Origin: a virus
IMG/VR virus record: IMGVR_UViG_3300025276_000081
Span: 1 to 36,842 of that record
Direction: 5' to 3' (one strand)
Length of the DNA stretch: 36,842 nt
How positions within the stretch are numbered: position 1 is the stretch's first letter; each line of letters starts with the position of its first letter. Shown here piece by piece: positions 2,155 through 36,842 of this stretch. A program made the position numbers and the translations under genes. Under the pieces are notes generated by a model, which searched no databases, had not been told where the DNA came from, and saw only the letters and a list, made by a program, of their open reading frames with translations.

Positions 2155-4515
2155 TTAAAATTTTTCTATTGATAATTCATTTTCACCTTCCCCTTCTCCT
2201 ATTCCTACCTTAAAATGGACCAGTCCGTTATACTTAATCTCTTCAAAGTATATATTTTTATGTACACAGTAATCTCTGACCTTTCCGTTAAATGATTGAG
2301 CTGATATTTTTACTTTTGGATATAGCTTATCAAATTTATCTCTAAAAGTTTTTCTATTTAGATAACTACCGTCAAAATGATTAGACTCCATAAACTCAAT
2401 AAACTCTATTCCCATGTTATTCTTAAACTTTCTAAATTCTAGATTAACCTTATTAGACTCTACTAATCCTTCTTTTAAAAAAAACTGAACGCATCTTATC
2501 ATGAAGTTGTCAAACTTTGCCCACTCGTCATTGGACCACTCAGAAAAAAATTGATGCCCAAATTCTTGTTCAGGCGTATAATTCTCATTAAAGTGATTAG
2601 CTATTTCTACTTCAAAAACTCTTCTAGCATGAGATGCCCCTTCCCCTTGAATAGTATAATTTGTTGTAATACTAATTTTAGGTGATTCATTAAAAGGAAT
2701 TAAAAACGCATCTTGCCCTTTCTTTTCAACAGTCATACCTTCAGTAATAACACTAAACAAAGCTTCAAAATGAAAGTTTTTAGGAACATCATCCATTAAG
2801 AATATCTGAGAGTCTTTATTAACTTTTTGATACGCGAATTGGTTTCTTGCATCAAACTTTTTTCCATCCTCAATTACTACGTTTTTTATTTGCCCTATAG
2901 CTCTATGGATTAATCCCTTACCAGAACCCCCATTAGGTACGTCTTCACTTATCATTTCGTCATTAAAAATAATCGCCTTAGGTTTACTCTCATTTTGATA
3001 TGAATGCATAAGGTATCCTATAACTGATTTTAAAGTGTAGTATCTGTCTTTATTTTCACCTGACAGTCTCCAGATAAAAGTTTTAAACTCTCCGTCTGAC
3101 TCCTCATTAAGATCTATTTTTCTATCGATAACTTGATTTTTCCATACCAAACTACCCACTTCACTATAAGGAATTAATTCAATATCATTCTTAGTAGTTT
3201 TAACAGCTCCATTTTCATAATATATAAATGATGCGTCTTTAGTATCCCTATTTATCTTAATATCTTTAGTGGATAACATTGATAAATATTGTGTACTAAA
3301 ATTATTGTTAGTATTAGCCATTAACTCAAAAGCATCTATTGAACCTCTTTTTTGAAGATCTCCCAAAGTAAAGTCTTTAATTTTTGTTTCTCCGAATTGA
3401 CTAATAAAATTACTATCTATTTTAATGAATGAGTATACGTCAGAATTTTCATCCGGATAGTATTTTGATATATTGTTATTCTCTAAGTATTGTTTAAATC
3501 TATAGGTGGCTAATTTAATTGTATCCTTCTCTGTATAATACCAAAATTCCTCTAAAGATAATTTATCCTTATTTTTAGCTATTTCATTTGTTAAGGACTC
3601 CTCTTTTAAATCCGGTATTATACTTTTGATTACCTCAATAGACTTCCCAGAAATTACTAAGTTTTTAATTTGAGATACCTTCTTTTTATCCTCAAAACTT
3701 TGAGTATTATACTCAGATGTGTATCTGTAAGCCGAGTCAATTAATAACGTTATTTCAGTAGCTTTAAAGTCACTCATTTCATATCTCATCAGATATTGTT
3801 CGCATATATTTTTATCTACTCCAAACGCATTCATTTGTCTTGCGTAAGCATGTAGATTAGTATTCCTATTTGTTGAAGTCCATTTTTTCGTAAACCACTT
3901 TTCTAAACGTTCTGCTATTTCGTTTTGATCAGTTAAGGGAATGTTAACTATTTCATTATTTACTGGTATAGGTTTATTATATTTATCAGCAAATAAAACT
4001 GACTCGGTATTAAGATACATATTTTCATCATAAGATAAATAACAAGCGTTAGATATTGCTTTAGTAGCATCGTCAGTTTTAGCATATTGATCGTAATGTT
4101 TTTGTATTTCAAAATAGTAATCTTGATAATCTGAGTTATTATCTACTAAAGGCATTCTTACCAAAACCTTTAAACCGTTTCCGGAAGGACTGATAAAAGA
4201 AGCAAAAGTATATTTGTCTTTATTTATGTTTTCTATTAATGTAGGTAGATCGTCAATACCGTCAAAATCTAGGCATGCCAACCCTGAAAATTTTTTTAAA
4301 CTATTATTACCTCTAACTGAAAAGGTACCGCTAAACGTCACGTAATGCAGTTTAGATTTTAATTGGTTCCTTATTTCTTTATCTGATTCAATTCTTATAT
4401 TAGCTATAAGACTTTTATACGTTCCGTCCTTTATTGATCCTAATACCGAGTAAACGCATTTGCTACCAGTCTTAGGAGTTGTATTTTTAATGTTTTGAAA
4501 TAGTGAAACTTTCAT
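2155..4515 (-). CDS. Replicative primase-helicase (VirE_N/BT4734-like primase plus SF3/D5-type helicase)
   Basis: 786 aa. The N-terminal VirE_N/BT4734-like primase domain carries LACLDFDGIDD (acidic D83 and D85) and FISPSGNGLK at 107-116. Residues about 217-265 look like the helical PriCT-type linker. The C-terminal ATPase has Walker A NGGSGKG at 528-534, Walker B IFLMDD at 571-576, sensor-1 ISITTN at 614-619 and an ARRVFE arginine motif near 630, typical of SF3/D5-type helicases. The protein should both prime and unwind phage DNA. It is the first gene of the 4515-86 operon, driven by a class A module at 4546..4595, and lies directly beside iteron element copy 1, a classic place for an origin-specific replicase. 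Confidence 0.9.
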   Translation of the reverse strand: MKVSLFQNIKNTTPKTGSKCVYSVLGSIKDGTYKSLIANIRIESDKEIRNQLKSKLHYVTFSGTFSVRGNNSLKKFSGLACLDFDGIDDLPTLIENINKDKYTFASFISPSGNGLKVLVRMPLVDNNSDYQDYYFEIQKHYDQYAKTDDATKAISNACYLSYDENMYLNTESVLFADKYNKPIPVNNEIVNIPLTDQNEIAERLEKWFTKKWTSTNRNTNLHAYARQMNAFGVDKNICEQYLMRYEMSDFKATEITLLIDSAYRYTSEYNTQSFEDKKKVSQIKNLVISGKSIEVIKSIIPDLKEESLTNEIAKNKDKLSLEEFWYYTEKDTIKLATYRFKQYLENNNISKYYPDENSDVYSFIKIDSNFISQFGETKIKDFTLGDLQKRGSIDAFELMANTNNNFSTQYLSMLSTKDIKINRDTKDASFIYYENGAVKTTKNDIELIPYSEVGSLVWKNQVIDRKIDLNEESDGEFKTFIWRLSGENKDRYYTLKSVIGYLMHSYQNESKPKAIIFNDEMISEDVPNGGSGKGLIHRAIGQIKNVVIEDGKKFDARNQFAYQKVNKDSQIFLMDDVPKNFHFEALFSVITEGMTVEKKGQDAFLIPFNESPKISITTNYTIQGEGASHARRVFEVEIANHFNENYTPEQEFGHQFFSEWSNDEWAKFDNFMIRCVQFFLKEGLVESNKVNLEFRKFKNNMGIEFIEFMESNHFDGSYLNRKTFRDKFDKLYPKVKISAQSFNGKVRDYCVHKNIYFEEIKYNGLVHFKVGIGEGEGENELSIEKF

Positions 4516-4545
4516 GTTTTATTTATTTTTTTTGTTTGTTTGTTT

Positions 4546-4595
4546 GTATATTCAAAAGTAGTTTATTAGAATGAGACTACCTAATTTATTTTGAT
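4546..4595 (-). promoter_or_regulatory. Class A start-associated operator/promoter, copy A1
   Basis: Member of a family of eight near-identical ~50-bp modules. Minus-strand -7 box TACTTTTG (+ strand CAAAAGTA 4553-4560), 37 bp before the primase-helicase ATG. Two overlapping inverted repeats sit just upstream: GTAGT 4558-4562 with ACTAC 4576-4580, and ATTAG 4565-4569 with CTAAT 4581-4585. There is no TTG at the -33 position; TTAGG occupies it at a 21-bp spacing. That fits a promoter needing, or blocked by, a dyad-binding regulator. Confidence 0.75.
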
Positions 4596-4614
4596 CTTTT
4601 TTTAATTTATTTTT

Positions 4615-4959
4615 ACTGGCAAACTTAGTTTATTGATTATAAATACTTTACCTTATTTAGGGTAGAATTGGCAAACTTTAAAATATTTTTTGCCCCAGCC
4701 GAAAACCTTTAACAGTAAGGGATACAACGATTTTGGGGTAGAAAAGTAAACTTTTTTCTCTATTCTCCTATACACAAAAATACATTTCATATATATTTTA
4801 CGTTTTAAAAAGGCAAAATATATATGAAATTCTTTTTTTAGCATATTGCAAATACGCCTAAAAAGTTTGCCTTTTTGCCAGTACCCTATAAACACTGGGC
4901 TAATCTGGGGCAAACTTTGTTTTTCAAGTTTACCAGTTAAGCCCTTTTCTGCCCCAAAA
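4615..4959. repeat. Iteron/palindrome element, copy 1 (candidate replication origin)
   Basis: This 345-bp element fills most of the 576-bp gene-free stretch 4516-5091; the rest holds promoter A1 and a terminator. It is about 88% identical to 22999..23355, differing by one 12-bp indel. It contains six copies of a 12-mer related to TGGGGCAAACTT: 4615, 4667, 4742 and 4906 in + orientation, 4863 and 4926 in minus orientation. The outermost pair, ACTGGCAAACTT and AAGTTTACCAGT, form near-perfect inverted ends. The centre is a perfect 16-bp inverted repeat, ATTTCATATATATTTT at 4784-4799 with its complement at 4815-4830, separated by a 15-bp loop. An 86-codon frame across it has only a TTG start and diverges mainly at amino-acid-changing sites, so I read it as non-coding. 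Confidence 0.85.
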
Positions 4960-5038
4960 GTTAAAAAATATTAAAAAATAAGATTGAATAAAATTAAATA
5001 AACCTATTGAACTAAATTTACATCCTAAATAATTAGAT

Positions 5039-5069
5039 AAAAAAACCCCTATTAATTTAATAATAGAGG
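5039..5069 (-). terminator. Intrinsic terminator after the SSB-like gene
   Basis: On the minus strand CCTCTATTA pairs with TAATAGGGG (8 of 9) around the loop TTAAAT, followed by a run of seven T. It lies about 23 bp past the stop of the 222-aa gene. Terminators at 8199..8228 and 23368..23401 have the same loop and TATTA/TAATA or ATTA/TAAT stem base. Confidence 0.85.
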
Positions 5070-5091
5070 TCTTGATTTTAGTTTTATGCTT

Positions 5092-5760
5092 TTAGAACGG
5101 CATGTCTTCAGCAGATACTTCTACCGTAGCTTCTACTGTAACCTCTTTGTCATCTCTACCAAAGTAAGAATCCATGTAAGTCTGTAAAGCATTAGCCGCC
5201 TCATCAGCTACCTTATTCTCTTCTTTAGATATCGTACTACCTAAAGTAAATTCTGGAGTAGTATATTTAACAGCTCCTTTTTTACCTTCTTTAGCCGAAT
5301 TGATCTCAATCCAATTATTATCTAACAAGTGGTTATTATCATTATAAAAATCTGAATAAGCCTTAACTGCCGATCCTTTAAAAGATACATTGATTAAAGA
5401 ACCTTCTGAAGTCATTGCATATATAGATCTATTGTATACTGCTCCGGCATTCTTAGTATTCTCTTTAATGTCTTTATAAAGTCCTTCACCAATTACACCA
5501 CCTTTAAATGCTTTAACTGTTAACGGTTCTTTACCGATAGAGTAAACCTCGTTAGAATAGATACCTGACTCGCTAGCATCATTCCAACCTTTTACTGTAT
5601 GGTAATGTTCTAAAAATAGTATTTTAATAGGTAACTCTACTAATACGTTCTCACCTTTAGCTTTGTCATAATAAGCGAAAGCTTTATCATTTGACTTCCA
5701 GTTTAAATACTGAGTTACTGGTGAACTCGTTTCGTTTGTTGGGCGTTTTAATCGTGCCAT
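5092..5760 (-). CDS. Single-stranded-DNA-binding-like protein
   Basis: 222 aa. The last residues, SAEDMPF, copy the acidic SSB tip (DDDIPF-like) that recruits replication proteins, and an acidic, low-complexity linker (about 185-215) precedes it, as in SSB proteins. The N-terminal part is beta-rich and could be an OB fold, but I do not recognise a named family there. It ends an operon with DnaA domain IV-like and Sipho_Gp157 genes and stops just before a strong terminator. A TATATTTG -7 box at 5825..5832 may give it a promoter of its own, and its ~65-nt leader contains two CTGAGG motifs that could serve self-regulation. Role inferred from the tail motif and context. Confidence 0.65.
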   Translation of the reverse strand: MARLKRPTNETSSPVTQYLNWKSNDKAFAYYDKAKGENVLVELPIKILFLEHYHTVKGWNDASESGIYSNEVYSIGKEPLTVKAFKGGVIGEGLYKDIKENTKNAGAVYNRSIYAMTSEGSLINVSFKGSAVKAYSDFYNDNNHLLDNNWIEINSAKEGKKGAVKYTTPEFTLGSTISKEENKVADEAANALQTYMDSYFGRDDKEVTVEATVEVSAEDMPF

Positions 5761-6360: not shown

Positions 6361-6577
6361 TGATTATATTTATTAGTTTTTGTTGTTTTAGTTTCCAGTA
6401 GTTGGAGCTATCTAATTCAATAGTTACAAAATAAATTACATTTTCTAACTCCTTTCTGGCTAACTCTTTTATTTCTTCAGAAGTATATTTGTAATATACT
6501 TTTAAGAACTCCGCTCTAGTATAATTACCAAAGTTAACTGTGTTATTCTCTACTAAACTTATTTTTTGATTATCCAT
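6353..6577 (-). CDS. Hypothetical early protein
   Basis: A 74-aa protein I do not recognise. It has a short N-terminal strand-like part and a helical stretch from about residue 33, YTSEEIKELARKELENVIYF. It overlaps both neighbours by 8 bp (DnaA domain IV-like gene upstream, Gp157 downstream), a pattern kept through the whole operon, so it is very likely translated. No membrane segments, cysteine clusters or catalytic motifs are visible. Confidence 0.7.
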   Translation of the reverse strand: MDNQKISLVENNTVNFGNYTRAEFLKVYYKYTSEEIKELARKELENVIYFVTIELDSSNYWKLKQQKLINIINE

Positions 6578-6986
6578 TTTTATATTTATTTATTATATTA
6601 TTAATTATTTCTTCGTCAATATTAGTTTCTATTCTTTTTAATTCGCTTTTAATTCTTATATTTATTTTTCTACATGTAGCCTTTACAACCTTATCCGTTT
6701 CTATCCAGTCTGAAATCTGCCGATCTGAATGTATAATAGTACCATGATCCTTACCTATAACGAAAGCTATACTCTCTAAAGTTTCCCTAGTGTACTTTCT
6801 ACTAAAATAAGCGTATAAATGTCTAGCAAAAACATGTTCTTTTTTTCTAGAGCTATAGAATAGCTTTACCTTTTCTACTGTTATATCTAGAGATTCGCAA
6901 ACGCAATTCATTATATTGTCAAGACTTATAATTCCAGCCCGAGTAGAATTTTCTTCTAGCCCACAAAATACGATAGGACTAATCAT
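6570..6986 (-). CDS. Free-standing DnaA domain IV-like DNA-binding protein
   Basis: 138 aa. Residues 23-93 match the C-terminal DNA-binding domain of DnaA (Bac_DnaA_C): an initial helix (IMNCVCESLDITVEKVKLFY), then RKKEHVFARHLYAYFSRKY, then the signature GKDHGTIIHSDRQI at 78-91, equivalent to GRDHSTVLHAVRKI in DnaA. No AAA+ domain is present, so it cannot be an initiator ATPase; it should bind double-stranded DNA only. Candidate targets in this genome are the iteron element and the class A dyads. It overlaps the genes on both sides by 8 bp. The domain call is strong; the target is inference. Confidence 0.87.
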   Translation of the reverse strand: MISPIVFCGLEENSTRAGIISLDNIMNCVCESLDITVEKVKLFYSSRKKEHVFARHLYAYFSRKYTRETLESIAFVIGKDHGTIIHSDRQISDWIETDKVVKATCRKINIRIKSELKRIETNIDEEIINNIINKYKNG

Positions 6987-7260: not shown

Positions 7261-7282
7261 AATATTTTGTTTTTGTTTGTTT

Positions 7283-7332
7283 GTATATTCAAAAGTAGTT
7301 TATTAGAATGAGACTACCTAATTTATTTTGAT
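7283..7332 (-). promoter_or_regulatory. Class A start-associated operator/promoter, copy A2
   Basis: Identical over its core to A1 and A3, with -7 box TACTTTTG (7290-7297 on +), both inverted repeats, and the A-rich leader ACAAACAAACAAAAAC leading to AATATTATG at 7260. It lies just downstream of the terminator of the 76-aa unit, so terminator, promoter and leader form one ~110-bp intergenic block. Confidence 0.75.
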
Positions 7333-7346
7333 TTATTTTAAAATAA

Positions 7347-7370
7347 TTTAAAAGGGCTTTTTACAGCCCC
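7347..7370 (-). terminator. Intrinsic terminator of the 76-aa unit
   Basis: Minus strand GGGCT, loop GTAAAA, AGCCC, then TTTT, 15 bp past the stop at 7385. A one-gene unit between A3 and this terminator. Confidence 0.75.
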
Positions 7371-7615: not shown

Positions 7616-7636
7616 AATATTTGTTTTTGTTTGTTT

Positions 7637-7686
7637 GTATATTCAAAAGTAGTTTATTAGAATGAGACTACCTAATTTATTTTGAT
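7637..7686 (-). promoter_or_regulatory. Class A start-associated operator/promoter, copy A3
   Basis: -7 box TACTTTTG (7644-7651 on +) about 29 bp before the ATG at 7615, with both inverted repeats present and unchanged from A1. It follows the terminator of the 103-aa unit directly. Confidence 0.75.
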
Positions 7687-7702
7687 TTATTTTTAAATTA
7701 AT

Positions 7703-8043: not shown

Positions 8044-8066
8044 AATATTTGTCATTTTGTTAATTG

Positions 8067-8116
8067 GTATATGTAAAAGTAGTTTATTAGAATTAGACTA
8101 CCTAATTTATTTTGAT
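8067..8116 (-). promoter_or_regulatory. Class A start-associated operator/promoter, copy A4
   Basis: Both inverted repeats are kept, with one base change in the spacer (AGAATTAGAC for AGAATGAGAC). The -7 box is TACTTTTA (8074-8081 on +). The leader differs from A1-A3: CAATTAACAAAATGAC in place of ACAAACAAAC. Copies A4, A5 and A6 share this leader type and so form a sub-family. Confidence 0.7.
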
Positions 8117-8150
8117 CTTTTTTTAATTATTTATTTGTTTTTGTTAATTG

Positions 8151-8190
8151 GTATATGTAAAAGTAGTTTATTAGAATGAGACCGCCAAAT
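8151..8190 (-). promoter_or_regulatory. Orphan class A module, copy A5
   Basis: A tandem copy 35 bp upstream of A4. The right arms are changed (ACCGCC for ACTACC), so both dyads are weakened, while the TACTTTTA box and leader remain. No gene lies between A5 and A4, so this looks like the promoter of a lost small gene or a second start site for the 103-aa unit. It lies in the ~216-bp gene-free stretch 8044-8259, together with A4 and a terminator. Confidence 0.6.
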
Positions 8191-8198
8191 AAAAATGC

Positions 8199-8228
8199 AA
8201 AAAAAAAGCAATTAATTTAATAATTGCT
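8199..8228 (-). terminator. Intrinsic terminator of the 8805-8260 unit
   Basis: Perfect minus-strand stem AGCAATTA with TAATTGCT around TTAAAT, followed by eight to nine T, about 32 bp past the stop at 8260. Same loop as the terminators at 5039 and 23368. Confidence 0.85.
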
Positions 8229-8805: not shown

Positions 8806-8826
8806 GTTTTTTTGTTTTTGTTAATT

Positions 8827-8870
8827 GATATATGTAAAAGTAATCTATTGAAATTAGACCACAAAACTTA
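8827..8870 (-). promoter_or_regulatory. Diverged class A module, copy A6
   Basis: The most diverged copy. The TACTTTTA box is kept (8834-8841 on +), but the dyad arms are altered (GTAAT for GTAGT, ACCAC for ACTAC). It lies between the last methyltransferase stop (8902) and the 37-aa gene. No terminator is visible between, so the methyltransferase transcript may run through. Confidence 0.55.
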
Positions 8871-8880
8871 TTTAAACTTA

Positions 8881-8925
8881 TTTTTATAATTTATAATCAT
8901 TCTAAATAAGCTTACAGTTTTCTAT
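8881..8925. repeat. 45-bp direct repeat, copy 1 (3' end of methyltransferase 1)
   Basis: Matches 11137..11181 with one mismatch. Here it covers the last codons of methyltransferase 1 and the sequence beyond its stop; the other copy covers the last codons of the 112-aa gene. As a result both proteins end in KLI (ENCKLI and ENSKLI). The repeats bracket the three-methyltransferase block, which points to duplication by recombination. Confidence 0.85.
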
Positions 8926-9642
8926 TCTTTCTTTAGCTATGTTAAAATAATTTTCGTCCATTTCAATACCTATAAAGTTTCTGTTTAAATTCTTTGCAGC
9001 AACTCCTGTAGAACCTGAACCCATAGTGAAATCTAATACAGCTTCATTTTCGTTCGTGTAGGTTTTAATTAGATACTCCATTAAAGCTACAGGCTTTTGT
9101 GTTGGGTGTTTCACTTTGTCGGCAGAACTATTGTGTACGCATTTAATTCCCTCTATGACTCTACTTGGATATACTAAATCTGTTTGATTGTCTTTAAAGG
9201 TTTTACTATAATCACCATAGTTATCTGTAGATGTTGAATGCTTTTTATTGCCTGCCTTTATAGTTGTTCTTGATTCCATAATAGGATTGTATGTTGGCGG
9301 TTTTTTATAAAAGACACTTACTATCTCGTTATTCAATAAAGGCATCTTCTTTGCATTTAAGAATCCTGTCTTTAAATTCTTTTTCCAAATCCAATCATAT
9401 TTGTAATTCTTAATATTACTAATTCTTAACGCACTACTAAAAGGTTCACTACCAAACAAAACTATTGCCCCGTTAGGCTTAATAATCCTGTTCAACTGTT
9501 CCCACATAAGCTCAAAATCAATTACACTATCCCACTTGCACGCTGTTGTACCATAAGGCGGGTCCGTTATTATAGCATCAATGCTATTATCTTCAATCGT
9601 TTTCATTACTTCAAGGCAATCGCCTAATCTTAAATCAATCAT
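8902..9642 (-). CDS. DNA methyltransferase 1 (beta-class, N6-adenine or N4-cytosine)
   Basis: 246 aa of the N6_N4_Mtase family, transferring a methyl group from S-adenosylmethionine to an exocyclic amino group of a DNA base. The catalytic motif IV is TDPPY at 26-30; the SAM-binding motif I FTMGSGSTG is at 205-213, after HPTQKP at 179-184. The order IV, target-recognition region, I makes it beta class, and DPPY favours N6-adenine. The middle (about 99-178) differs strongly from the two paralogues, so the target site probably differs too. Its last codons belong to a 45-bp repeat shared with the 112-aa gene. No partner restriction enzyme is present, so the likely role is shielding phage DNA or marking it. 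Confidence 0.93.
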   Translation of the reverse strand: MIDLRLGDCLEVMKTIEDNSIDAIITDPPYGTTACKWDSVIDFELMWEQLNRIIKPNGAIVLFGSEPFSSALRISNIKNYKYDWIWKKNLKTGFLNAKKMPLLNNEIVSVFYKKPPTYNPIMESRTTIKAGNKKHSTSTDNYGDYSKTFKDNQTDLVYPSRVIEGIKCVHNSSADKVKHPTQKPVALMEYLIKTYTNENEAVLDFTMGSGSTGVAAKNLNRNFIGIEMDENYFNIAKERIENCKLI

Positions 9643-9656
9643 TTATTCTGTTTTTT
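9566..9656. repeat. 91-bp direct repeat, copy 1 (5' end of methyltransferase 1)
   Basis: Identical by eye to 11050..11140. It covers the first ~25 codons and the leader of methyltransferases 1 and 3. Identity includes third codon positions and the leader, so the copies arose, or were converted, recently. Methyltransferase 2 does not share it. Confidence 0.85.
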
Positions 9657-10369
9657 GCTATGTTAAAATAATTTTCATCCATCTCTATACCTATAAATTT
9701 TCTGTTTGTATTCTTACAAGCTACGCCAGTCGTTCCACTTCCCATTGTGAAGTCTAAAACTGTTTCATTTTCATTGGTATAGGTCTTGATTAGATATTCC
9801 ATTAATAATAACGGTTTTTGTGTTGGGTGTAGACCTTTATCTCTCTTGAATGTTAAGATAGTTTTAGGATAGTTTGTGTGAGTTGAAATAAACTCTTTTT
9901 TATGAGAAGGTCTACTTGCAAAAGAAACATTACTTGTTACAGTCTTTGTTCTCTTTTTATTAATCTCAACTAATCCTTGTGGATAGTAGTCCATTCTGTT
10001 TTTAGATTGACCTTTGTGAACTGTTGTTCCATTGCTGAAAATTATAATATTTTCATGTTGTTTCATAGGCTTATTTTTAGCATGAACAAAATTAGTAGCA
10101 CTTGCTTTATTCCAAATCCAATCGTACTTATAGTTTTTAATATTACTCATTCGTAAAGCAGAACTAAACGGCTCACTTCCAAATAAGACTATTGCTCCAT
10201 TAGGCTTTATTATTCTATTAAGCTGCCCCCACATAGGCTCAAAAGGTATTACTGAATCCCACTTACAAGCTGTAGTTCCGTATGGAGGGTCTCTTATAAT
10301 AGCGTCTATGCTACCTGTAGGTATAAGTTTCATTTGTTCTATACATTCTCCTTTAATTAAGTTTATCAT
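9635..10369 (-). CDS. DNA methyltransferase 2 (beta-class paralogue)
   Basis: 244 aa, the middle gene of three. DPPY is intact at 27-30 but preceded by R26 instead of T. Motif I reads FTMGSGTTG, and HPTQKP is present. The N-terminal ~98 residues and C-terminal ~65 are closely alike in all three genes; the centre (about 99-175, with MKQHENIIIFSN and a basic stretch INKKRTKTVTSN) is unrelated to the other two and should set a different target. The stop region overlaps the start of methyltransferase 1 by 8 bp. The N-terminus (MINLIKGECIEQMK) is more diverged than that of 1 and 3, so this is the older duplicate. Confidence 0.92.
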   Translation of the reverse strand: MINLIKGECIEQMKLIPTGSIDAIIRDPPYGTTACKWDSVIPFEPMWGQLNRIIKPNGAIVLFGSEPFSSALRMSNIKNYKYDWIWNKASATNFVHAKNKPMKQHENIIIFSNGTTVHKGQSKNRMDYYPQGLVEINKKRTKTVTSNVSFASRPSHKKEFISTHTNYPKTILTFKRDKGLHPTQKPLLLMEYLIKTYTNENETVLDFTMGSGTTGVACKNTNRKFIGIEMDENYFNIAKNRIND

Positions 10370-10382
10370 TTTTTATTTATTT

Positions 10383-11126
10383 TTAAAATAGTTTTTTTGG
10401 TATGTTATTAATTCTATCGGTCGCTATGTTAAAATAATTTTCGTCCATTTCAATACCTATAAAGTTTCTGTTACATTGCTTTGCAGCTACTCCAGTTGAT
10501 CCACTACCCATTGTAAAATCAAGTACCGTTTCACCCTCGTTGGTATATGTTTTAATTAGGTATTCCATTAATTCAACAGGTTTTTGTGTTGGGTGGTTGT
10601 AGTTTGTTTGTTTGTCGCTTTTAAAGACTATGTTCGTTCGTGGATACCTGTCCGTATTACCCCCAAAAGGCAATTCTTTTGTGGCTTTACCATACACTTG
10701 TGTTTTATTTTGTACTGCAAGTCTTCTAACTCCGCTATTCATAGGTTCGTGTCCTTGTGTTTTTTGAGGATTATAAACGCATTGTTTTTTATAAAATACA
10801 GATATCAATTCATTACTTCTTAATGGTTGTTTGTTAGCGTTTAAGTGTCCTGTTGCCTGTGTTTTTTCCCATACCCAATCATACTTGTAGTTCTTAATTT
10901 TACTCATTCTTAAAGCACTACTAAAAGGTTCACTACCAAACAAAACTATTGCACCATTCGGTTTTATAATTCTATTTAATTGTTCCCACATTAACTTAAA
11001 ATCAATCACACTATCCCACTTACATTTTGTTGTACCATAAGGTGGGTCTGTTATTATAGCATCAATGCTATTATCTTCAATCGTTTTCATTACTTCAAGG
11101 CAATCGCCTAATCTTAAATCAATCAT
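10383..11126 (-). CDS. DNA methyltransferase 3 (beta-class paralogue)
   Basis: 247 aa, first of the three in transcription order. It has TDPPY at 26-30, HPTQKP and the motif I segment FTMGSGSTG. The first 25 codons and leader are identical in DNA to those of methyltransferase 1, while the central target-recognition region (about 100-175: ELISVFYKKQ shared with 1, then a different stretch with GVRRLAVQNKTQVYGK) has diverged. It follows the 112-aa gene by 31 bp. All motifs needed for activity seem intact, so each of the three could be active on its own site. Confidence 0.92.
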   Translation of the reverse strand: MIDLRLGDCLEVMKTIEDNSIDAIITDPPYGTTKCKWDSVIDFKLMWEQLNRIIKPNGAIVLFGSEPFSSALRMSKIKNYKYDWVWEKTQATGHLNANKQPLRSNELISVFYKKQCVYNPQKTQGHEPMNSGVRRLAVQNKTQVYGKATKELPFGGNTDRYPRTNIVFKSDKQTNYNHPTQKPVELMEYLIKTYTNEGETVLDFTMGSGSTGVAAKQCNRNFIGIEMDENYFNIATDRINNIPKKLF

Positions 11127-22998: not shown

Positions 22999-23355
22999 AG
23001 TGGTAAACTTTGGGGCAAACTTAGTTTACTGATTATGATTACATTACCTTATTTAGGGCAAAATTGGCAAACTTGAAAATATTTTATGCCCCAGCCGAAA
23101 CCCTTTGATAGTAGGGGTTTGGAGACTTTTGGGGTAGAAAAGCAAACTTTTTCCTCTATTCTGCTATATAGAAAAATACATTTTGTATATATTTTACGTT
23201 TTGAAAAGGCAAAATATATATGAAATTCTTTTTTTAGTATATTGTAAAACCGCCTAAAAAGTTTGCCTTTTTGCCAGTAGCCCGTAAATGCTGGGCTAAT
23301 CTGGGGCAAACTTTGTTTTTCAAGTTTGCCAGTTAGTCCATTTTCTACCCCAAAA
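22999..23355. repeat. Iteron/palindrome element, copy 2
   Basis: 357 bp, homologous to 4615..4959 with about 88% identity over the core and one extra 12-bp unit at the left end, which adds a seventh iteron. Iterons related to TGGGGCAAACTT: 22999, 23011, 23063, 23138 and 23302 in + orientation, 23259 and 23322 in minus orientation. Ends are inverted (AGTGGTAAACTT and AAGTTTGCCAGT). Central hairpin 23180-23195 with 23211-23226 pairs in 14 of 16 positions; both changes would be G-U wobbles in a plus-strand RNA. With its terminator and the AT-rich 22822-22998 stretch it fills the ~630-bp gene-free gap 22807-23433. Confidence 0.85.
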
Positions 23356-23367
23356 AAGTAAAAAGCA

Positions 23368-23401
23368 TAAAAAAACTCCTATTAATTTAATAATAGGAGT
23401 T
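23368..23401 (-). terminator. Intrinsic terminator of the TerS-to-HTH late unit
   Basis: Perfect 11-bp minus-strand stem AACTCCTATTA with its complement around TTAAAT, followed by a T run; 33 bp past the stop at 23434. It directly precedes iteron element copy 2, as the terminator at 5039 precedes copy 1. Confidence 0.9.
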
Positions 23402-23433
23402 AACACTTTGCTTTTATTTTTTAAATTATAGCT

Positions 23434-23664
23434 TTAATTTTTCATAATATTAATAACATATCTTACCATGTTATCAGAGTAGTTAAATTTTTCCGCTGTA
23501 TTTGATACGCATTGCATTTTACTTTTTTCTATTTTTAATTGATAAATATAAAAATCATAAAGATCAATCCAAATAGTGTAGTTAAATGATATTACCCCTT
23601 TGTTAATACAATCCTCTAAAAGTCCTGACTCTTTTAGTTTTTTTATTAGTTCTGATGTTACCAT
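23434..23664 (-). CDS. Helix-turn-helix protein following the tape measure genes
   Basis: 76 aa. The C-terminal NTAEKFNYSDNMVRYVINIM (55-74) is a homeodomain-like helix-turn-helix, and the opening ELIKKLKESGLLEDCINKGV matches small Bacteroidota phage proteins that end in such a motif. It is the last gene of the TerS-to-terminator unit and overlaps the Cys-rich gene by 7 bp. It could act as a late regulator or bind the adjacent iteron element; neither is shown by the sequence. Confidence 0.65.
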   Translation of the reverse strand: MVTSELIKKLKESGLLEDCINKGVISFNYTIWIDLYDFYIYQLKIEKSKMQCVSNTAEKFNYSDNMVRYVINIMKN

Positions 23665-35868: not shown

Positions 35869-35890
35869 GATATTTTATTTTTGTTTGTTT

Positions 35891-35940
35891 GTATATTTAA
35901 AAGTAGTTTATTAGAATAAGACTACCTAATTTATTTTGGT
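35891..35940 (-). promoter_or_regulatory. Class A start-associated operator/promoter, copy A7
   Basis: Both inverted repeats kept. Two changes from A1: GTATATTTAA for GTATATTCAA (so the box reads TACTTTTA) and GAATAAGAC for GAATGAGAC. It precedes the lipoprotein gene. Confidence 0.72.
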
Positions 35941-35946
35941 TTATTT

Positions 35947-36162
35947 TTAAAATAATGCTATTATTTGAGTTACTATTACTTTAGCGGGTGATTTGCTATT
36001 AAGCTCATCACATACGATTTTGGCAGAATCTGCATCATTCCAGATCTTAATAGTTTTGTCATTTCCGAATTTAGGAATCATAAATCCATTTAAGTTGTAG
36101 TTTTTGATCCAAAAGTTACCCCTTGAATCTTCTATTGCAAACATTTGTTTTGAGTTAGTCAT
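35947..36162 (-). CDS. Hypothetical early protein, single-gene unit
   Basis: 71 aa. Strand-like segments MFAIEDSRGNFWIKNYNL and KIWNDADSAKIVCDEL suggest a small alpha/beta fold of the kind seen in short phage proteins rich in W and Asp, of unknown role. It is a one-gene unit between class A module A8 and A7, starting at the ATG behind the shared leader. No terminator before A7 is visible. Confidence 0.65.
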   Translation of the reverse strand: MTNSKQMFAIEDSRGNFWIKNYNLNGFMIPKFGNDKTIKIWNDADSAKIVCDELNSKSPAKVIVTQIIALF

Positions 36163-36183
36163 AATTTTTGTTTTTGTTTGTTT

Positions 36184-36233
36184 GTATATTCAAAAGTAGT
36201 TTATTAGAATGACACTACCTAATTTATTTTGAT
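36184..36233 (-). promoter_or_regulatory. Class A start-associated operator/promoter, copy A8
   Basis: Core as A1 except GACACTACC for GAGACTACC, which leaves both ACTAC and CTAAT arms intact. -7 box TACTTTTG (36191-36198 on +). Together with the terminator at 36249..36270 it is nearly identical to the block 7637-7724. Confidence 0.75.
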
Positions 36234-36248
36234 TTATTTTAAATTAAT

Positions 36249-36270
36249 TTAAAAGGGGCTTTTAAACCCC
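36249..36270 (-). terminator. Intrinsic terminator of the 59-aa unit
   Basis: Minus strand GGGGTTTAAAAGCCCC then TTTT, 12 bp past the stop at 36283. Same sequence as 7703..7724. Confidence 0.8.
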
Positions 36271-36282
36271 TTATTGTTTTTG

Positions 36283-36462
36283 TTATTTGATTAATGTTAG
36301 TCCTAGCTCTGAAGCTGCGTAGTTGATATGTTTCTGAGTAGTTACACTCCAATATCCTAGTTGGTGAAGTTCATTCCCTTTGATTTCAGCTACTTTAGTA
36401 GTGTAAGAGATAATAAAATTCCCTTCCTGTCTTAAGTTTTGTTTGTACTTTGTAAATTCCAT
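36283..36462 (-). CDS. Hypothetical early protein (59 aa)
   Basis: MEFTKYKQNLRQEGNF to the end GLTLIK. A short frame with strong context: ATG behind the same ACAAATATT leader as other early genes, class B promoter upstream at 36484, terminator 12 bp past the stop. Aromatic and polar, perhaps a small alpha/beta protein; no family recognised. It overlaps an unrelated longer frame in another register at 36395-36583, which I reject. Confidence 0.68.
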   Translation of the reverse strand: MEFTKYKQNLRQEGNFIISYTTKVAEIKGNELHQLGYWSVTTQKHINYAASELGLTLIK

Positions 36463-36483
36463 AATATTTGTTTTTGTTTGTTT

Positions 36484-36541
36484 GTGTTATGTAAAGATAG
36501 AAGTAATATTGATATAAAAAAACTTTTATCGATTTATTTTT
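36484..36541 (-). promoter_or_regulatory. Class B start-associated promoter module, copy 1
   Basis: Contains TATCTTTA (+ strand TAAAGATA at 36492-36499), the leader ACACAAACAAACAAAAAC, and an imperfect dyad (ATTGATATAAAA facing TTTTATCGAT). It differs from copy 2 (36745..36800) at only a few bases. The class A dyads are absent, so these two genes may obey a different signal. Confidence 0.6.
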
Positions 36542-36548
36542 AATTATT

Positions 36549-36722
36549 TTATCCGAGGACATAAAATGTTCCATCCTTTTCAATAACCGCTTTTGACTTA
36601 TCGTAAGAAGGACCTTTATACATTATTGCGGAAGTTCCATCCATATTCAAATTATAAAAACCTCTTTTTTCTAATTTAGCTATTGTAGTTTTTTGTGCCG
36701 ATGTTAATTTAATTGCTTTCAT
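36549..36722 (-). CDS. Hypothetical early protein crossing the closure point (57 aa)
   Basis: 57 aa from the ATG at 36722 (MKAIKLTSAQKTTIAKLEKR). An upstream in-frame start at 36767 would translate the promoter leader itself (HNTNKQKQN), so I reject it. The N-terminus is a basic helix; the rest is strand-like (SAIMYKGPSYDKSKAVIEKD). No family recognised. Promoter at 36745..36800. Its first codons also appear at bases 1-7 because of the terminal overlap. Confidence 0.7.
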   Translation of the reverse strand: MKAIKLTSAQKTTIAKLEKRGFYNLNMDGTSAIMYKGPSYDKSKAVIEKDGTFYVLG

Positions 36723-36842
36723 AATATTTTGTTTTTGTTTGTTTGTGTTATGTAAAGATAGAAACAATATTCATGTAAAAAAACTTTTATTGATTTATTT
36801 TTATTTTTTCTTTAAATAAATTTTAACTCCTATAAGTACAGC
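36716..36842. repeat. Terminal direct repeat, right copy (circular closure)
   Basis: Exact copy of 1-127. One of the two must be dropped to obtain the 36,715-bp circle. Confidence 0.93.
36745..36800 (-). promoter_or_regulatory. Class B start-associated promoter module, copy 2 (right end)
   Basis: The same DNA as 30..85. TATCTTTA box at 36753-36760 on +, about 30 bp before the ATG of the 57-aa gene, matching the box-to-start spacing of class A modules. Confidence 0.6.

Follow-up and report, generated by a model that had tools for sequence, protein, structure and literature searches.

Introduction

In the origins of phage-inducible chromosomal islands (PICIs) and Staphylococcus aureus pathogenicity islands (SaPIs), two iteron sets flank an AT-rich region; the iteron words differ between members, and they are read by the C-terminal domain of the SaPI Rep protein (PMC6092414, PMC7581432). 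According to its description, SaPI Rep appears to bind as a pair of hexamers. In phage P4, the multifunctional primase-helicase alpha reads repeats through a winged-helix origin-binding domain, and replicons of the pRN1 type have an archaeo-eukaryotic primase (AEP), a superfamily 3 (SF3) helicase, a C-terminal winged helix, and a stem-loop near the gene (PMC4234260). Proteins that combine AEP, PriCT, helicase, and winged helix in this order are known, and they have been proposed to recognize origins (PMC5862659). Here we describe an element of ~345 bp, located at positions 4615 to 4959 of a viral DNA of 36,842 nucleotides (nt) (IMG/VR record IMGVR_UViG_3300025276_000081, analyzed at its full length and called the window). 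The element is very probably a replication origin of the iteron type, of the PICI/SaPI and P4 kind, that is read by the phage's own primase-helicase.

Results

Architecture of the element and its two copies

The element occurs twice in direct orientation, as the initial annotation had claimed. Positions 4618 to 4959 of copy 1 and 23014 to 23355 of copy 2 align over 342 bp without a gap, with 41 differences. The claim that copy 1 is directly upstream of the primase-helicase gene was also correct, with the copy sitting before the promoter of that gene. The terminator next to the element was duplicated together with it and the primase promoter was not; copy 2 has an extra iteron at its low end (23000 to 23010). 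The features are as follows.

4615 to 4959, minus (strand of the genes served): element copy 1, candidate iteron origin, between the terminator of a gene for a protein like single-stranded DNA-binding protein (SSB) and the primase-helicase promoter
4615 to 4757, no strand: promoter-side iteron set of copy 1, with ACTGGCAAACTT (4615-4626), TTGGCAAACTT (4668-4678), TTGCCCCA inverted (4690-4697), TTGGGGT (4733-4739), and AAACTTTTTT (4748-4757)
4758 to 4860, no strand: AT-rich core of copy 1, candidate melting region, 77% AT
4784 to 4830, no strand: perfect 16-bp inverted repeat at the center of copy 1, with a loop of 15 bp
4863 to 4958, no strand: far-side iteron set of copy 1, with AAGTTTGCC (4863-4871), TTGCCAG (4875-4881), GGGGCAAACTTT (4907-4918), AAGTTTACCAG (4926-4936), and TGCCCCAAA (4950-4958)
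5037 to 5092, minus: terminator-like hairpin after the SSB-like gene, with its duplicate at 23367-23422
22999 to 23355, minus: element copy 2, in direct orientation relative to copy 1 and 88% identical, between the terminator after the gene at 23434-23664 and the head protease gene

The core word GGCAAACTT is found nine times without mismatch in the window (copy 1, four; copy 2, five), compared with an expected average of 0.38 and a maximum of 2 in any shuffle. Related short repeats in both orientations had been noted, and all nine exact words do fall inside the two copies. With one mismatch permitted, there are 5 sites in copy 1, 8 in copy 2, and 8 outside the copies. Of the inverted ends described earlier, neither copy has both in perfect form: copy 1 has ACTGGCAAACTT at 4615 and AAGTTTACCAGT at 4926, and copy 2 has AAGTTTGCCAGT at 23322 but TTTGGGGCAAACTT at the opposite end.

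The core of copy 1 is AT-rich but not extreme, given a genome average of 68% AT and 9% of 100-bp windows that are as high. It holds ACGTTTT, and its minus strand reads TATAGGAGAATAGAG where relatives have CTCTATAG. The arms of the central inverted repeat (4784-4799 and 4815-4830) form the only perfect 16-bp inverted repeat of the genome with a loop of 3 to 24 bp. This part of the annotated design applies to copy 1; the inverted repeat of copy 2 (23180-23226) has two uncompensated mismatches, which rule out the hairpin as a conserved cruciform, and the DNA fold z scores were −5.2 for copy 1 versus −1.9 for copy 2. Between the copies, substitutions affected 6 of 123 positions in the iterons and inverted repeat versus 35 of 219 elsewhere (Fisher P = 0.003, a value weakened by the choice of the iteron spans by eye). 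Since the iterons and inverted repeat changed less, copy 2 is probably still bound. An 86-codon open reading frame (ORF) is open in both copies and was rejected as a gene, as substitutions fall on all codon positions without a codon pattern.

The layout is conserved upstream of primase-helicase genes in related phages

With the primase-helicase as the query, 55 loci were found. Repeat arrays precede the primase-helicase gene in many of them, and the iteron word differs between phages (the words include GGCAAAAAA, CAATCCAAA, AAACTTCGT, TTGTGACGA, ATTTGTACG, CGGGAAAAA, TTTACACACT, AGTACGAAGTT, CGTGACGAT, and TGTGGCAC). Gaps upstream of the gene were tested for repeat clusters against dinucleotide shuffles, with at most two upstream gaps tried per record and with control gaps from the same records. 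Significant clusters (P ≤ 0.02) were present in 12 of 30 records versus 3 of 91 control gaps.

Nine close relatives could be aligned with both copies of the window and have one layout in more or less complete form. GGCAAA-type iterons lie outside and a double GGCAAAAAAGCAAAAAA inside, next to an AT-rich core that holds TACGTTTTTTTTATT and CTCTATAG; on the far side the iterons are inverted (TTTTTTGCC...TTTTTTGCCAGT), and the primase promoter follows directly after the last one. In one locus (L016) the iteron word is altered within the aligned layout. The gene order SSB-like gene, iterons, primase is kept in relatives, and the 5' side of the primase-helicase gene is where the element lies in the window and in the relatives read. 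These clusters and the shared layout are the conservation in related phages on which the initial annotation had made its proposal depend. Place and layout persist while the word turns over, which is the behavior expected of iterons and their reader. A comparable cluster, in which GGTTACAAA-like words face both ways, lies at 5040-5296 in the record of the cultured Bacteroides phage BT-TP2, there 3' of a DUF5906-like primase-helicase gene.

Other repeats and leaders were seen in these loci. A dense ATTTGTACG/CGTACAAAT array (L055:9240-9870; 11 words in one 350-bp stretch) lies ~2.5 kb upstream of a primase-like match. Between the iterons and the primase gene, four loci have a leader that resembles a structured RNA (L015:9850-10000, L011:3190-3297, L114:3250-3376, and L110:11000-11140), with a stem such as GCTGGGAACTTC...GGTTCTCCCAGC and then an attenuator-like AAAGAGGTTTTTTTT. 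At a contig end (G010:31850-32461, L079), an array repeats a CGCTAACCT-like word, unrelated to the iterons, up to 22 times. In Polaribacter phage Leef_1, seven GATTACAGA words after an integrase gene (L123:12111-12600) could be an origin or an attachment-site region.

The adjacent primase-helicase has the predicted domains of an initiator

The genes with putative replication functions near copy 1 are as follows.

2155 to 4515, minus: primase-helicase of 786 amino acids (aa), with a BT4734-like primase domain, PriCT-1, an SF3 helicase, and a predicted C-terminal winged helix (residues 692-771)
5092 to 5760, minus: gene for the SSB-like protein (PHROG 6706; unmatched in Pfam), with the SSB-type acidic tip EDMPF
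6570 to 6986, minus: free DnaA domain IV (DnaA-IV) protein (PF08299, E = 2e-15), frequent in the family though not present throughout

Pfam identified BT4734_N and PriCT_1 in the primase-helicase, the latter slightly under its curated cutoff, and the SF3 motifs are readable (Walker A GGSGKG, Walker B FLMDDV, ITTN, and RR). The AlphaFold2 model of the C-terminal winged helix has a predicted local distance difference test score of 86 and the topology H-H-E-H-H-E-E. In Foldseek, the whole-protein model matched AsfvPrimPol and the SaPI5 primase-helicase; the C-terminal domain alone had no match at E ≤ 0.001, and the primase profile had none among the sequences of solved structures. In a structural comparison of the C-terminal domain, the origin-binding domain of phage P4 (1ka8) was the fourth match (Z = 7.1, root mean square deviation of 2.1, 70 residues). 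The primase-helicases of six loci (L012, L013, L015, L016, L020, and L022) were also inspected; many have an acidic tail in -PF that resembles the SSB tip (VDSEMPF, DESCPF).

A second copy near the opposite point of the circle

The first and last 127 bases of the window are identical, and the genome is a circle of 36,715 bp with almost all of its genes on the minus strand. The 127 bp are likely the k-mer length of the assembler on a circular genome; a circular relative (G002) has an equal overlap of 127 bp. The copies of the element are 18,396 bp apart on this circle, 38 bp off the exact half. The chance of a spacing so near to half is ~0.2% (77 of 36,715 bp), for a pattern noticed afterwards in one genome. 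Tentatively, the two might be complete iteron origins placed diametrically opposite and served by one primase-helicase, either halving replication time or communicating as a bipartite pair like ori and crr of P4.

The head region around copy 2 is shared with two relatives (L084 and L085) at ~84% DNA identity. Both have a small ORF on the other strand in place of the element, so copy 2 is an addition or replacement in this phage lineage. An assembly chimera is unlikely, as copy 2 lies within a stretch that is syntenic with these relatives on both sides.

Searches for the element elsewhere

Searches with the element DNA gave no real match in phage records, and none was found in Rfam. The exact long element pattern did not match any viral contigs, and a looser pattern had one match in viral contigs, within coding sequence, that was judged to be chance. 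A close relative covering the early region was sought with the helicase gene, and none carrying the element was found. In a scan of 84,980 bacterial and archaeal species, each represented by a single genome, the pattern had 24 scattered one-off matches with no extended similarity. A host-derived miniature inverted-repeat transposable element or insertion element was rejected because no family of copies was found in this collection, which may not include the host species.

Other repeats and duplications in the window

Eight copies of an 86-nt leader- or promoter-like repeat (TGTATATTCAAAAGTAGTTTATTAGAATGAGACTACCTAATTTATTTTGAT) that contains a short inverted repeat are located before early operons (4526-4611, 7263-7348, 7617-7702, 8047-8132, 8131-8216, 8808-8893, 35871-35956, and 36164-36249) and resemble a repeated early promoter. 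The end repeat (1-127 and 36716-36842) has a third copy just inside, at 36455-36581, with 70% identity. Three tandem paralogous genes for N6/N4 DNA methyltransferases (PF01555, 244 to 247 aa) occupy 8902-11126, with 69 to 89% DNA identity in places.

Discussion

The origin proposed in the initial annotation gains support from the position of the element, from an architecture that is kept in relatives, and from the adjacent primase-helicase of the initiator type; the case for the proposed DnaA-IV reader is weakened, and the hairpin is not kept in both copies. By analogy and from the predicted fold, the C-terminal winged helix would bind iterons of both oppositely facing sets. Two SF3 helicase rings might then assemble, one on each side of the AT-rich core; after melting the core they would move outwards and prime. 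Copy 1, at the conserved place before the primase gene, would be the primary origin. Copy 2 would be a terminator-plus-origin module duplicated into an intergenic gap among head genes; with iterons that have stayed intact, it most likely functions as another binding site, whether as a second origin or as a helper like P4 crr.

Several observations weigh against this reading. The GC skew does not switch at copy 1 or copy 2 and so did not map an origin; it is monotonic, and genes on one strand would mask a switch. In the repeat-cluster test, 18 of the 30 related records were above P = 0.02. No second copy was found in relatives, including the circular one, many of these records being fragments. 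The Z score of ~7 for the predicted winged helix is middling and, taken alone, may reflect only a common fold. The C-terminal domain was tried as the part of the protein that tracks the iteron word, and the relation was not significant once the rest of the protein was controlled (partial r = 0.20, P = 0.077); the word tracks residues 290 to 440 better (r = 0.49, P = 0.0005). Covariation thus does not settle which domain reads the iterons.

The initial annotation had suggested the DnaA-IV protein as a binding partner. That this protein or host DnaA reads the iterons, nucleates the origin, and loads the primase-helicase seems unlikely to us. DnaA-IV is a DNA-binding domain, its genes are frequent neighbors in the family, and the gene of the window is 1.6 kb away; however, none was found in five iteron-bearing records, possibly fragments (G001, 32 kb; G015, 43 kb; G006; G023; and G028), and the exact DnaA box TTATNCACA is absent from the 36.7-kb genome (1-36715), with a single one-mismatch site near copy 1, at 4768. 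Because some iteron-bearing records show no DnaA-IV gene, the primase-helicase appears, from gene content, to be the likelier reader. Less probable still is an operator that coordinates the two operons it precedes without being an origin. Both copies do have a terminator on one side and an operon start on the other, and in relatives the last iteron abuts the primase promoter, but repeated operon promoters (the D1/D3 repeats) stand at many other starts without the element. An origin better explains the length of ~345 bp, the two inverted iteron sets with an AT core between them, and, in relatives, the neighboring SSB-like and primase genes; autoregulation by an initiator would be compatible with origin function.

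Copy 2 might alternatively be a functionless duplicate, either decaying or selfish, that arose as a transposed or recombined fragment. We regard this as doubtful but worth keeping in view: its absence from the orthologous place in L084 and L085 fits, as do the lack of a match in the other relatives searched and the mismatches in its inverted repeat, whereas the alignment without indels, the extra iteron, and iterons that are nearly unchanged next to variable spacers do not. A mobile element with its own ends would not be expected to carry the terminator along, and the species-wide scan revealed no family of copies. A role of both copies as recombination sites for multimer resolution, integration, or packaging is highly improbable. 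Two direct copies on one circle with inverted-repeat ends could suggest it, but no recombinase or integrase was detected among 30 genes scanned with Pfam, the terminase genes (33.5 to 35.2 kb) are distant from both copies, and arrays with changing words are atypical of recombinase sites. Recombination between direct copies would moreover cut the genome in two.

The reading of the element as an iteron origin points to putative origins in phages in which replication is unstudied. The same design recurs across a broad Bacteroidota-type phage group, with different words in many members, and forms a natural series in which joint changes of initiator and iterons could be followed. The duplicated origin allows a direct test of the way in which a single SF3 initiator handles two copies per circle. 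Because BT-TP2 is cultured and has a comparable cluster, an experiment on such a module is possible.

The initial annotation knew of no described element with this design, but PICIs, SaPIs, and P4 provide precedents. As in PICIs and SaPIs, two iteron sets surround an AT-rich core in the window and in nine close relatives, the words differ between members, and the whole-protein model matches the SaPI5 primase-helicase. The origin is 5' of the gene here but 3' in PICIs, the genome carries terminase, portal, and other structural genes of its own and is that of a phage rather than a satellite, the primase domain is BT4734-like, and the element is present twice. P4 alpha likewise has an SF3 helicase fused to a primase and a C-terminal winged helix, the latter predicted in this phage with a fold match to 1ka8; its primase domain is TOPRIM, in contrast to the BT4734-like domain with PriCT-1 found here. 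The P4 crr is an iteron-bearing helper site and is not itself an origin. P4, with ori and crr, has two separate iteron loci per genome as this phage does, although copy 2 retains the whole module, including the AT core. The AEP primase-SF3-winged-helix architecture and a stem-loop near the gene are shared with pRN1, whose origin is located downstream and lacks iterons; copy 2 of the present element has not kept the stem-loop. Iteron plasmid origins, with Rep, DnaA boxes, and a DNA unwinding element, also place iterons beside an AT-rich stretch and an initiator gene, but in one tandem array, whereas the iterons here face both ways around the core, exact DnaA boxes are absent, and the initiator is itself helicase and primase. 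The origin design thus belongs to a known kind, with precedents in the phage satellites SaPIs and P4. What is new is its spread among Bacteroidota phages with BT4734-type primase-helicases, its usual 5' position, and the second copy.
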